Source of the DNA: Duncaniella sp.
GTDB lineage: Bacteria > Bacteroidota > Bacteroidia > Bacteroidales > Muribaculaceae
Direction: 5' to 3'
Assembly: GCA_029060405.1 (NCBI GenBank)
Contig: JAIDUB010000101.1
Location: 1 to 32,258 of the forward strand
DNA length: 32,258 bases
Shown here: one piece after another, positions 22,826 through 26,607 of the stretch
How positions within the stretch are numbered: position 1 is the stretch's first letter
How the letters are laid out: every line of letters starts with the position of its first letter
Position numbers and translations under genes: made by a program
The notes under the pieces: model-generated
The model's database searches: none
Told to the model about the DNA's origin: nothing
The model's input: the letters and a program-made list of their open reading frames with translations, nothing else

Positions 22826-24700
22826 TTACTTCACCGCGATTTTCTTCACCTCGTTGCCCTGACGGACGATGTAGAGTCCGGCGGGGAGGGCTGAAATCTC
22901 GGCTGCCGATGCGTTGCGGAGCACTGCGACGCCCTGCGTGGTGTAGACGTCGGCCATTGCCGGGTTGTCGCTGAGAATATCTTCTATGCCGGAAGTGCCA
23001 GTTACGGTACATTCGGCCTTGAGGTCAGAGCCGTCGGTGGTGGCGGCGGTGATTACGCAAGTACCCGCCTTGAGGATTTTCACCAGTCCGGTGGCGCTGA
23101 CAGTGGCGACAGCCTCATCGCTGCTCGACCATGCTATTTCCTTGTTAGTGGCGTCGTCGGGAGTGACGGTGACTGTGAGCTGAACCTCGCTGCCTTCTTC
23201 GGCCTCGATGGAGGTGCGGTCGAGAGTGATGGACTCAACGAGTACCACGGGTTCTGCTACGGTTACTTTGCAGGACTCCGAGTGAGCCACGCCGTAGCCG
23301 TCATATACCGTGTAAGTGATCTCGGCCGTACCGAGGGCTACGGCAGTTACCTTGCCGCCCTCAACAGTAGCTACTTCAGGATTGGAGCTTGTCCACTCGT
23401 GATCACCGATGGTCATATCGTCATCCTTAACAACCGTCACGGTAAGTTCGGCCGACTCACCTTCGCTGAGTCTGAGGGTTGATTCACTGAGAGTGATGTC
23501 AAAAGCACCCATCTCGCGGAAATCGGAGAATTGAGTCCAATCACTCGCAAACATATATGCCATATAGCTGCCTTTGGGGATATATACTACCGCATTGGAA
23601 GGAACACCATAGAATGCACCACTCGCATGTTGTGGGGTGGGATTTAGGTCAATGATTTTTGTCAGGTTGGTGCAATTATGGAAAGCTTCTTGAAGTAACC
23701 AAGTCACGGACTTGGGTATTGTCACCGAGGTCAGGCTGGTGCAATCTTCGAATGTTTTATCACAGACCTCAGTCAAGGAGTTAGGTATTGTCACCGAGGT
23801 CAGGCCACTACGAGCGAATACGTAGTAACCCATCCAAGTCACGGAGTTGGGAATGGTCACGGAGATCAGACTGCTGCATCCAGAGAACGCAGAGTGGCCG
23901 ATCTTAGTCACTGAGTTGGGGATTGTAACCGAGGGTAGGCTACTGCATTCAAAGAATGCACCATCGCCGATCTCAGTCACGGAGTTAGGTATTGTCACCG
24001 AGGTCAGACTGCTGCAAGAACTGAACGTGTTTTTGTAGATCTTAGTCACTGAGTTGGGGATTGTAACCGAGGTCAGGTTACTGCATCCTTCGAATGCTTG
24101 GTTCCCTATATATACCACGGAGCTTGGGAATTCATATTCTGTTTTAGCCCCGGGACACTGATAAAGACTTGTCTTAGCAATGTTATAAAGAACGCCATTA
24201 TCGGAACAGTATTTTTGGTTACCGTCCTCGACTATAATCTCTTCCAGCTTTGTACAGTTTGCAAAGGTACCGTAACCTAATGAATTCACGGAGCTTGGGA
24301 TGGTGACCGAGGTCAGGCTGCTGCATCCATAGAATGCATTCTCACCGATCTGAGTCACGGAGTTGGGGATTGTAACCGAGGTCATACTGCGGCAGTTATA
24401 GAATGCATTCTCACCGATCTGAGTCACGGAGTTGGGGATTGTAACCGAGGTCATATAGCTTTGATAGAATGCCCTCTCACCGATCTGAGTCACAATATAA
24501 CGAAAACTGCCACGCGTGACAAAATTAGGAATGTTGACTTCGTTGGACTTGTTGTATTTATTTTCAGCGACTGCAGCTGTGTGGTTGGCTTCCGAGAGCA
24601 CGGTGTACATGATCCCCTCGAAACCGAAGGTGTCGCCGTCGGCTGCGCGGGCGACTGTGGCGAGCATTATCGCCACTAATGAAAGTAGAATTTTTTTCAT
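22826..24700 (-). CDS. BspA-type leucine-rich-repeat surface protein with two Big2 domains
   Basis: A 624-residue exported protein. Residues 1-19 are a Sec signal (cleavage near ARA-A). About 65-390 hold some 11 BspA/TpLRR repeats of 23 residues with consensus AFxxCSSLTSVTIPNSVTxIG. About 400-482 and 488-567 are two bacterial Ig-like (Big2) domains (WTSSNPEVATVEGGKVTAVALG, WSSSDEAVATVSATGLVKILKAG). About 570-624 is a C-terminal tail (VYTTQGVAVL...LPAGLYIVRQGNEVKKIAVK) like Bacteroidales sorting tails. Such proteins often bind host matrix or other bacteria; the ligand is unknown. The start overlaps the upstream gene's stop by 4 bp (ATGA). The LRR DNA is almost identical between repeats (69-bp period). 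Confidence 0.92.
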   Translation of the reverse strand: MKKILLSLVAIMLATVARAADGDTFGFEGIMYTVLSEANHTAAVAENKYNKSNEVNIPNFVTRGSFRYIVTQIGERAFYQSYMTSVTIPNSVTQIGENAFYNCRSMTSVTIPNSVTQIGENAFYGCSSLTSVTIPSSVNSLGYGTFANCTKLEEIIVEDGNQKYCSDNGVLYNIAKTSLYQCPGAKTEYEFPSSVVYIGNQAFEGCSNLTSVTIPNSVTKIYKNTFSSCSSLTSVTIPNSVTEIGDGAFFECSSLPSVTIPNSVTKIGHSAFSGCSSLISVTIPNSVTWMGYYVFARSGLTSVTIPNSLTEVCDKTFEDCTSLTSVTIPKSVTWLLQEAFHNCTNLTKIIDLNPTPQHASGAFYGVPSNAVVYIPKGSYMAYMFASDWTQFSDFREMGAFDITLSESTLRLSEGESAELTVTVVKDDDMTIGDHEWTSSNPEVATVEGGKVTAVALGTAEITYTVYDGYGVAHSESCKVTVAEPVVLVESITLDRTSIEAEEGSEVQLTVTVTPDDATNKEIAWSSSDEAVATVSATGLVKILKAGTCVITAATTDGSDLKAECTVTGTSGIEDILSDNPAMADVYTTQGVAVLRNASAAEISALPAGLYIVRQGNEVKKIAVK

Positions 24701-25467
24701 CTGGTTTGTTGTTGGTTAATATATTGGATTATTTCTTTAAGTTTCTCAGGCGCGGGGAGGTGGTTGTGCGCCCCCGACAGGCATACGAAGCTCACATCAC
24801 TTAATTTCTCGTCGACAAGGTGGAAGATGTCAAAGTTGATTTTATCTTTTCCATTCTCCCGACACACATTCTGCGGCTCTGAAATTCGATCGCCTGCAAT
24901 ATCCTTAACCTTGCCGTACGCGGCGCGCACGATGACAATACGGTTCAGTTGATCTTTGTCGATGAGTCGCGAGGCTCGGGCGGCAAAGCATAATGCGTGC
25001 TCCACCACATCATCTTTGCTTTTGGTCAGATAATCCTGATTGAGTCGGGGCGAATCACTGTGATAGGGTGCCAATTCAATGCTGAGGTGATGTCGGGTGT
25101 CAGGTGAGATCTCCTCTTCGGATAAGCCGAGAGCGAGCATAAGCGGACGATGGCGGTGACGGTGATGCCAGCGCTCGGTGTCGGCAAGATGTGCGCGCAG
25201 CGCACCGCAGAGCATAGCGGCCGAATATGACAGTCCGCCGATGCCGCACCCTAATGCGCAGGATATGCAGGCCTGCGACTGCAGTTTTCCTCCCGGTCCC
25301 GGGCTGAGATTGACTACGACGCTATGTAGCTTCTCACAGCTCGCGGGATGCCATCCCCACCAAGGCTCGGGCAAATAGGGCACATCGGGTCGGGCTCCGA
25401 GTTTCCAGAGTCTGATAAAATTGTCCCAGTGACTGTAATGTTGTAATATAGCCTCGCAACCGGCCAT
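24697..25467 (-). CDS. Protein of unknown function, possible uracil-DNA-glycosylase-like fold
   Basis: A 256-residue protein from ATG at 25467 (MAGCEAILQHYSHWDNF). The frame continues upstream only to a TTG at 25530, which falls inside a terminator-like hairpin, so the ATG is preferred. No signal peptide. Visible features: PYLPEPWWGW (about 32-41), VVVNLSPGPGGK (about 50-61), a Cys-containing stretch CISCALGCGIGG, HRHRHRP near 105, and near the C-terminus VCLSGAHNHLPAPEKLKE. The NxSPGPGG and late GAHxHxPAP segments recall motifs 1 and 2 of SMUG-like uracil-DNA glycosylases, but this is weak and unproven. First gene of an overlapping pair with the LRR protein, behind a long structured leader. 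Confidence 0.75.
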   Translation of the reverse strand: MAGCEAILQHYSHWDNFIRLWKLGARPDVPYLPEPWWGWHPASCEKLHSVVVNLSPGPGGKLQSQACISCALGCGIGGLSYSAAMLCGALRAHLADTERWHHRHRHRPLMLALGLSEEEISPDTRHHLSIELAPYHSDSPRLNQDYLTKSKDDVVEHALCFAARASRLIDKDQLNRIVIVRAAYGKVKDIAGDRISEPQNVCRENGKDKINFDIFHLVDEKLSDVSFVCLSGAHNHLPAPEKLKEIIQYINQQQTR

Positions 25468-25515
25468 AATTTGCCTTGTGCCGCCGGACCTCTCTCTTTG
25501 GCTTGTAAAGTGGGG

Positions 25516-25550
25516 AATAGAAAAGCGCAAGGTCTGTACCTGTTGCCCGC
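25516..25550 (-). terminator. Terminator-like hairpin between the leader RNA and the ORF
   Basis: On the minus strand GCGGGCAACAGGT pairs with ACCTTGCGC around an ACAG loop (9 pairs, two small bulges), followed directly by TTTTCTATT. It sits between the structured leader and the ATG at 25467, the position of a riboswitch expression platform or of the 3' end of a free-standing small RNA. Confidence 0.55.
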
Positions 25551-25553
25551 TCC

Positions 25554-25741
25554 ACAGTTAGAGGCCTTCGCATTGCCCGGATTCGTAGAACGGACAACGC
25601 AGAGGCCTCGCGCAAATATGCAACGCCATTCGGCACGATGCTCTCGCATCAATACCGGACGAACATGGTTACATATCCACAAAGGCGTCCGTCGCTGCCA
25701 CATTCCTGACGAATCCTGAAAGTTGCGAAGTTTCTAACTGT
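25554..25741 (-). ncRNA. Structured leader RNA or small RNA, family not recognised
   Basis: Read on the minus strand: a perfect 9-bp closing helix (ACAGTTAGA at the 5' end, 25741-25733, with TCTAACTGT at 25562-25554) encloses at least three hairpins. These are GGACG...CGTCC (25690-25657) with an inner UGUGG/CCAUG stem; an 11-bp stem capped by a GAGA (GNRA) tetraloop, GATGC-GAGA-GCATC (25650-25637); and a 19-position stem, GAGGCCT...AGGCCTC (25609-25561), with one mismatch and three G-U pairs. The G-U pairs and the GNRA loop exist only on the minus strand, the strand of the downstream gene. A promoter lies upstream and a terminator-like hairpin downstream. It could be a riboswitch-like leader or an independent RNA. 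Confidence 0.6.
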
Positions 25742-25828
25742 CAAGAAAGAGCGCTAAGTAACGCTTTTCATATGTCATTGCATCCCACCCCGTGCCCATA
25801 TCGGGCCTCCGCGGGCGATATGCACTGG

Positions 25829-25860
25829 CAAAGATACAAATACTCTTGAGTTTGAGCAAA
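25829..25860 (-). promoter_or_regulatory. Promoter of the leader RNA and downstream genes
   Basis: On the minus strand TTTG (25857-25860), a 20-bp spacer, and TATCTTTG (25829-25836): one of the best consensus matches in the window. It predicts transcription from about 25822 and a leader of about 355 nt before the ATG at 25467. Hairpin-forming sequence (25792-25825) and a short GCG/CGC hairpin (25748-25767) lie between it and the structured element. Confidence 0.7.
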
Positions 25861-25950
25861 TTTTTTACGCTCCTTAAATGAAAATGTTGGCCTGTATAGG
25901 ATCGGCACATACCGCGCGACAGTCATTAACCACGACTTCTCGCCATGGAA

Positions 25951-26151
25951 AACCGCGAAGCGGTGCCGTTGTGATTAACCGCGGGTGCAGCCCGCGGAAA
26001 AGGGACACGATAGATATAGAGCCGCGAAGCGGCGACGTCGTGTGAATATAGTTGCTTTTACGACATCGCCGCTTTGCGGCTCAGATAGTTTCGAGATACT
26101 TCCCTCCGCGGGCTACACCCGCGGTTAATGACGACCGCGCCGCTTCGCGGC
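25951..26151. repeat. Nested inverted repeat of about 200 bp
   Basis: The two halves are reverse complements over roughly 90 bp with a short centre at 26042-26059. Each half has two conserved blocks: CCGCGAAGCGG plus ATTAACCGCGGGTG(C/T)AGCCCGCGG (outer), and GAGCCGC(G/A)AAGCGGCGA(C/T)GTCGT (inner). The blocks are themselves palindromic: 25951-25963, 25979-25997, 26021-26033, 26068-26080, 26106-26124, 26139-26151. No ORF of note. It is adjacent to the right copy of the long repeat. Confidence 0.85.
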
Positions 26152-26161
26152 TTAGTTTTTC

Positions 26162-26607
26162 AAAACCAGTACAAGCATCCACAGGATACCCTTATGTCAC
26201 CGCTGATAGAGCGTGGCAAAAGCGGTGCCGGCTCAATCGACCGCTCCCCCGCACTTTCTGACAACAATGTGCCTCCGGCACACATAGCCGGCTCTGTCAC
26301 CCGCAGCGCGGGTGATTGCATAATAGCGTGGTGGTTGAGGCCACGCCGAAACCCCACGAAATAAATGGCTTATATATTCCGCACGCGCAGGCGCGTGTGC
26401 GAGCATCGCAGCGACGGCTGGATTGGCTGCTTGTCACTGCTTGCACACGCTCCCGCGTGTGCATTTTCTTGGGGTAATGATTTGACGCAGGGTTCGGCAC
26501 GGCCTCAACCCTACGCCATTATGCGTTCACCTGCGCTGCAGGTGATTTATGTGGGTAAAGATGCTTTTGTCGCGCACCATTAGTTGTGGACGCGATTAAT
26601 CGCGTCC
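26162..26607. repeat. Long dispersed repeat, right copy (hairpin array)
   Basis: Direct-orientation counterpart of 22421-22806, sharing the same order of small palindromes (GTGCCTCCGGCAC, CACCCGCAGCGCGGGTG, GCACGCGCAGGCGCGTGTGC, a GCACACGC/GTGTGC hairpin, CACCTGCGCTGCAGGTG). It carries roughly 55 extra bp near 26221-26275. The ORFs running through it are repeat translation, not genes. Confidence 0.85.
26588..26607 (-). terminator. Palindrome after the rluA-family gene
   Basis: GGACGCGATT-AATCGCGTCC, a perfect 20-bp palindrome 12 bp past the pseudouridine synthase stop. It lacks a clear U-tract on the minus strand, so its role as terminator is uncertain; it corresponds to the GACGCGA hairpin ending the left repeat copy. 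Confidence 0.4.

Follow-up and report, generated by a model that had tools for sequence, protein, structure and literature searches.

A candidate multi-copy leader RNA with switch-like architecture in Bacteroidota

Judged by comparison of its copies, the element described here is a real, phylum-wide structured leader RNA with a switch-like architecture and no match in Rfam 15, whose function we infer. It was identified on the minus strand of a 32,258-nt stretch of DNA from Duncaniella sp. (assembly GCA_029060405.1, contig JAIDUB010000101.1; hereafter the window), where the interval from 25860 down to 25484 comprises, ahead of a gene, a promoter-like site, a rod-shaped RNA with a U-tract at its end, and a segment able to pair. 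We consider it probable, at about 0.72, that the element is a multi-copy cis-regulatory leader RNA of the attenuator kind that controls the gene behind it, an estimate that includes the pairing states and the common signal proposed below. This reading is based on the kept fold, the promoter-like site, the one-sided spacing to the next open reading frame (ORF), three co-varying pairings, the U-tract and the unrelated genes found behind the element. An initial annotation of the region had suggested a riboswitch-like leader: the covarying structured leader, the promoter-like site, the U-tract, the adjoining gene and the lack of an Rfam match all stand, whereas the multi-branch fold assigned to it is replaced by a rod.

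Organization of the element in the window

The element, all parts of which lie on the minus strand, begins at 25829-25860 with a promoter-like TTTG-N20-TATCTTTG site, read from the sequence and already recognized in the initial annotation, which we take to be of the Bacteroidota -33/-7 promoter type. It is followed at 25780-25825 by a 5' domain, defined by alignment and fold and consisting of a UAUCG/CGAUA hairpin with a G-rich 3' flank, which can be discerned by eye in most, not all, of the 30 aligned loci. The rod core spans 25518-25770, where covariance model R1 scores 213.7 bits (E 1e-53), a score that is not independent, the window copy being one of the 28 training sequences of R1. At the base of the rod, the 5' strand of helix P1 (25760-25769) pairs with 25521-25528, as supported by covariation and permutation tests. 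Covariation also defines variable helix A, with its 5' strand at 25733-25741 and its partner at 25554-25562, and variable helix B, formed by 25708-25716 and 25579-25587. The alignments reveal a conserved core motif, with its 5' strand GAAACUUCGCAACUUUC at 25718-25734 and its 3' strand GGGCAAUGCGAAGGCCUC at 25561-25578, and fold and sequence together place a GNRA-capped stem-loop, GAUGC-GAGA-GCAUC, at the apex (25637-25650).

Three further segments concern the alternative pairings. The internal strand GCGCGAGG (25606-25613; coordinates from the sequence, pairing tested family-wide) is an alternative partner of the 3' strand CCUUGCGC. The 3' switch strand CAGACCUUGCGCUUUU, together with the beginning of the U-tract, occupies 25521-25536, and its downstream partner, AGAGAGGUCCGG, lies directly ahead of the gene at 25484-25495, both being defined by permutation tests. 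The gene itself (24697-25467, ATG at 25467) encodes a protein of 256 aa according to the ORF list. The closing helix, the GAGA-capped stem and the run GCGCTTTTCTATT ahead of the ATG that had been described initially are all present; the closed multi-branch element of about 190 nt in which the helices had been placed is instead one long interrupted rod of about 253 nt with the 5' hairpin as a separate domain. In the intergenic region at 25900-26600, short palindromic repeats near GCGGGCTGCACCCGCGG and CCGCTTCGCGG appear REP-like by eye.

Fold conservation, covariation and strand specificity

On the minus strand, the interval 25516-25826 folds with a minimum free energy of -142.9 kcal/mol, compared with -104.0 +/- 5.1 kcal/mol for 100 shuffled sequences, none of which folded as well (z -7.7); the opposite (plus) strand of the same interval reaches a z of -4.3. 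RNAalifold, applied to alignment A1, which comprises the rod from 28 of 30 loci (one masked by N and one with a long apical insert were left out), predicts 62 pairs, 29 of which display at least one double compensating change. In the R1 alignment of 103 matches (102 distinct, including one 123-nt partial and one reverse-strand match), which is fitted to the structure and thus biased in its favour, 96.7% of 6254 cells are paired, compared with 81.4% after shuffling. Sliding the partner by 1-3 columns in this alignment leaves 34-47% of cells paired, and these slid controls agree with the earlier free alignment A1. Changes on both sides affect 47 of the 62 pairs, a count that, like the permutation tests below, retains some kinship among copies despite thinning, and the covariation score is 0.494, compared with 0.195 +/- 0.004 for shuffled data. 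The check for covariation that the initial annotation had proposed therefore gives a strong result, and in having a conserved, covarying structured domain the element resembles riboswitches.

The pairing is also specific to one strand. Among 101 aligned copies, that is, the 103 matches with the partial and the reverse-strand match left out, G-U occupies 555 cells and A-C 49, and because G-U outnumbers A-C to this extent, the selected strand is taken to be the transcribed one. The strand specificity first noticed in the window consequently holds for its relatives. Since the variable helices change by compensating pairs and the lengths of the copies vary, an overlapping protein frame would be an unlikely cause of the conservation; chance ORFs do overlap the rod in the ORF list of the window. 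The GNRA loop at the apex occurs in 92 of 141 folded long copies, a common feature and not a universal one.

Helices A and B flank the core motif, which reads GAAACUUCGCAAC / UGCGAAGGCCUC in the window and GAAAUCUGGUAAAUUUU / GGGCUUACCAGAGCCUC in short forms. Both helices are highly variable and almost purely Watson-Crick, with G-U in 20 of 1106 cells compared with 351 of 4218 in the other helices of the rod. In one case, two copies that are 98% identical in the core columns differ in four of the five pairs of helix A. The idea that these helices serve as orthogonal barcodes within a genome was not convincingly supported and is not adopted. Identical A barcodes occur in 1.3% of 153 within-genome pairs and 2.2% of 4897 between-genome pairs, and identical B barcodes in 3.3% of both. 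Mean pair identity within and between genomes is 0.32 and 0.34 for A, and 0.33 and 0.42 for B, where the lower within-genome value leans to orthogonality, but most such pairs are divergent copies of a single genome.

A switch strand with three overlapping partners

The 3' strand of the rod (GGCUCUCACGCUUUU type), which has the U-tract next to it, possesses three overlapping partners. One is the 5' strand of P1, at the 5' end of the rod; another is the internal strand near the rod tip, which reads GCGCGAGG in the window and GCGUGAG or GCGUGGG elsewhere; and the last is the segment directly before the gene, which reads AGAGGUCCG in the window, with one mismatch, and GGGGAGUCC elsewhere. Permutation tests on thinned copies (73 of 139 long and 51 of 64 short) indicate that, for all three pairings, the partner present in the same copy is superior to the partners of other copies (0 of 2000 permutations each, z -6.2 to -8.4). 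Three control pairings in the same test, which matched the switch strand with the U-run, with a segment upstream and with one inside the gene, remained at chance level. The internal pairing is mostly invariant in long copies, where 96.1% is paired compared with 94.1% expected from the columns and the support comes from few changes (14 on both sides), while the short forms vary more. A GCC...GGC hairpin perceived by eye in the downstream segment was not supported (z 0.9 and -0.6).

The U-tract is conserved, with means of 6.2 and 6.4 U in the 8 nt after CGC, and the element thus presents a GC-rich helix directly followed by a U-tract, as in an intrinsic terminator. P1 likewise adjoins this tract, which counts against fixing which of the states terminates. 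By position, P1 and the downstream pairing would be compatible with each other, and the internal pairing would exclude both; the alternative pairings, as in riboswitches, therefore appear to be mutually exclusive, to judge from their overlap, and it is this exclusion that suggests the logic of an attenuator.

Distribution among genomes

A DNA search returned matches in 33 of 61 related genomes. Among 197 genomes of Muribaculaceae, the family to which the window belongs, all at least 90% complete, covariance model R1 detected the element in 179; no more than 10 candidates were scored in each, and the number of copies per family genome is therefore a minimum. At the level of the order R1 matched 34 of 198 genomes (including 3 from Muribaculaceae), and in the phylum set 1 of 296, the own genome only. 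A second covariance model, R2, constructed from 25 short forms of 164-180 nt, found it in 60 of 247 genomes of the class and in 38 of the 296 phylum genomes (the own genome, 1 of the order, 27 of the class and 9 of other classes), which implies that the near-absence of R1 matches at phylum level is a limit of that model. The E-values given by R1 and R2 are approximate, and some of the weak matches near 1e-4 may be false.

Within the own genome, the one searched in depth, 17 places were identified by R1, for which 150 of 381 first-look candidates were scored, and 2 by R2, giving 19; one of the two added by R2 is weak (45 bits, E 2e-4). Six of the copies constitute a subfamily with rods 75-88% identical, and those with a visible gene precede different genes. 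By eye, the alignment of these copies extends from the promoter box to about 40 nt past the rod, and the flanks outside these limits do not align. Because similar rods precede different genes between unaligned flanks, it appears that copies spread or become homogenised irrespective of the gene behind them.

Contigs of named genomes, at least 119, were retrieved by a 17-base pattern and analyzed with R1 (80 contigs, E up to 0.01) and R2 (all 119). Together, the models match at least 21 of the 119 pattern-holding contigs listed, all titled Bacteroidota or Fibrobacter, and contigs titled as other phyla that hold the same pattern, which serve as a negative control, gave no model match among those listed. 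The carriers include Runella, Emticicia, Dyadobacter, Rikenellaceae, Bacteroidaceae, Muribaculaceae, a Bacteroides MAG and Candidatus Minthenecus, with the lineage checked for three genera and the remainder assigned from their titles. R2 scores arise by construction for seven of the 21 carriers, six that were used to train the model and one whose sequence is identical to a training copy; their R1 matches are independent. The weakest match to a named carrier has 18.9 bits (locus L173). Beyond its own family, the element is more thinly spread through Bacteroidota and is present in Fibrobacter.

Mobile carriers were surveyed as well. BLAST against 50,697 phage records gave one weak match, to an unverified faecal contig that does carry the element, the BLAST search of plasmids gave no match, and 3 of 12 viral contigs retrieved by pattern carry the element according to R1 or R2. 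An association with phages was not retained on the basis of one weak record and three viral contigs that may be host DNA. The copies at loci L122, L124 and L125 are located on contigs from viral collections, which may be prophage or host DNA, and the gene behind the L124 copy resembles an EF-Tu-type GTPase.

Placement and downstream genes

The gathered elements comprise 186 distinct copies (192 with duplicates), 182 of which have at least 250 nt of downstream sequence. ORFs were counted when they started within -10 to +260 nt and encoded no fewer than 60 aa, or 40 where the locus ended inside them. Such an ORF follows 171 of the 182 copies, and the 11 copies without a qualifying ORF within 260 nt are counted against the leader reading. 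The start lies 30-90 nt past the rod in 136 of the 171 (median 54 nt). Where no less than 700 nt is available on each side (107 loci), an ORF starts at this distance on the 3' side in 77, compared with 3 reading outward from the 5' side. Upstream of the rod, TAnnTTTG is present within 160 nt in 129 of 136 long copies versus 9 matches in control windows farther upstream, and in 48 of 63 short copies versus 5, with room for a control window at some loci and not at others. By position only, the element thus resides in the 5' leader of a gene, as riboswitches do.

The genes behind the element are unrelated even within one genome. Of the 171 downstream proteins, 150 were scanned against Pfam, and among the matches listed (25 of 64 families) BspA-type LRR accounts for 16, DUF4595 for 6, and caspase, LytTR and TerB for 2 each, the others being single or double. 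BspA-type LRR proteins are equally numerous among neighbouring controls (16 of 141, compared with 16 of 150). Direct downstream genes matched 64 Pfam families and controls 153 (25 of each listed), a difference that may be explained by ORF length, the controls being the longest neighbouring ORFs; some control genes are also second genes behind the same element. PADLOC returned 26 families for the 150 downstream proteins, with restriction, DndC/SspD and others matching single members, and 117 for the 141 neighbouring proteins, largely one kinase-like group among the 25 listed. A defence regulon was accordingly rejected, the controls matching more PADLOC families, and no enrichment is claimed. 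A crude signal-peptide rule flagged 95 of the 171 downstream proteins, the only set to which it was applied. At loci L018, L020 and L316, the leader precedes a Cys-rich peptide with a Tat-like start, and at L018 and L020 the next protein resembles a radical SAM enzyme, so that a RiPP cluster is possible there.

The 256-aa protein of the window has no match in Pfam; in NCBIfam it weakly resembles Brig1, an anti-phage DNA glycosylase, at a score of 14.8 bits (E 0.014) that is below the cut-off of 230, and a profile search of solved structures retrieved nothing up to E 1. The gene is sporadic, occurring in 10 of 197 family genomes, and the protein family is marked by the motifs PEPWWG and NLSPGPGG. 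Full-length homologues were found at eight loci, and the element lies upstream in 7 of the 7 testable ones, down to 29% protein identity, the contig of the eighth ending 115 nt upstream. Counted among the seven is the closest homologue (88% protein identity, L248), whose upstream match is weak (19.8 bits) and counts against the leader reading. Upstream of the partial protein matches L255-L257, no R1 match was obtained, which likewise speaks against it.

Relation to known RNAs and alternative explanations

To our knowledge, few riboswitch-like elements have been described in Bacteroidota, and a 2017 RNA survey reportedly presented 224 motifs. A comparison with Rfam, also proposed in the initial annotation, yielded no family on the element at the gathering thresholds of Rfam 15 for the window and 39 further loci. 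Under a permissive threshold, three weak matches appear in the window region; one of them, to mir-33 (E 0.32, 18 bits compared with a cut-off of 50), overlaps the rod on the same strand and is taken as a chance match, and sub-threshold matches elsewhere are weak as well. No description of the element was found in the parts of the literature covered (PMC8040213 and PMC2864571 among them), and an earlier listing of a portion of this RNA may exist. As far as the portion consulted extends, 6S-flavo, Flavo-1, Bacteroidales-1 and Bacteroid-trp are structured RNAs of Bacteroidota found by comparative genomics, and a few motifs have no Rfam number (PMC2864571). These four come from the same phylum as the element, but none matches it in the Rfam scans. 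At locus L324, a Flavo-1 RNA (RF01705) occupies 1051-1126, separated by 375 nt from a short-form copy downstream, without overlap. A structured regulatory leader is thus a known kind of RNA, while the fold, the three-way choice of the switch strand and the use before many genes are new to us.

Metabolite and second-messenger riboswitches with attenuation platforms combine a 5' position, internal loops, alternative helices, a U-tract and mixed genes, and c-di-GMP riboswitches are known for many copies before functionally mixed genes. The element shares with those that act by transcription attenuation the 5' position, conserved internal loops, overlapping alternative helices, U-tract and mixed gene set, but differs in being a rod rather than a multi-branch structure, in having three competing partners for one strand, and in matching nothing in Rfam. 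A narrower form of the leader reading, in which the element would be a riboswitch in the strict sense and bind a ligand that conveys a general signal, for instance a second messenger, is in our view unlikely: the many copies before functionally mixed accessory genes, the conserved internal loops and the overlapping alternative pairings speak for it, but no ligand theme is seen among the downstream genes, and a protein effector fits equally well. Like retron msr-msd RNA, the element stands directly before an ORF, and a retron-like RNA-protein pair had been entertained initially; this idea is not supported, since the same RNA precedes many unrelated genes and the window ORF has no reverse transcriptase match in Pfam or NCBIfam.

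A free-standing small RNA, in which the rod would end at the U-tract and act in trans with the gene behind being incidental, would account for the conserved U-tract, the very stable rod and a promoter-like site of its own. The tight, one-sided spacing to the next start codon and the co-varying partner that lies past the U-tract, beside the gene, make this quite improbable, and 19 divergent places within a single genome would be unusual for one small RNA. Less probable still is that the element is a MITE- or attC-like repeat, mobile or selfish, that is recognised as folded DNA. Such a repeat would suit the 19 places in the genome, the six copies 75-88% identical with unaligned flanks, and the near-absence of G-U from helices A and B (20/1106 cells versus 351/4218), but folded DNA would pair equally on both strands, and over the whole rod the wobble bias is 555 to 49; the promoter-like site upstream and the one-sided placement relative to genes argue against it as well.

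Proposed mechanism and significance

For the favoured reading, a cis-regulatory leader, we propose that the RNA could adopt two exclusive states, one with P1 and the downstream pairing and the other with the internal pairing. In the internal-pairing state, a helix of 7-9 bp would adjoin the U-tract and serve as an intrinsic terminator. After read-through, the downstream pairing might affect translation or mRNA stability, and a common signal, either a protein or a small molecule, would shift the balance for all copies in the cell.

A broader proposal, which we advance tentatively and hold to be somewhat doubtful, is that all copies belong to a single class of leader that would act as a global RNA switch, so far uncatalogued, across the phylum Bacteroidota and in Fibrobacter: with about 19 copies in a cell such as that from which the window comes, a shared signal would set the expression of surface-protein, lipoprotein and anti-phage-type genes via the three-way choice of partner. 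If this is true, the surface and accessory genes behind the leader, mostly uncharacterised, would form a regulon, and one RNA and one signal would provide a direct handle on how these bacteria switch them.
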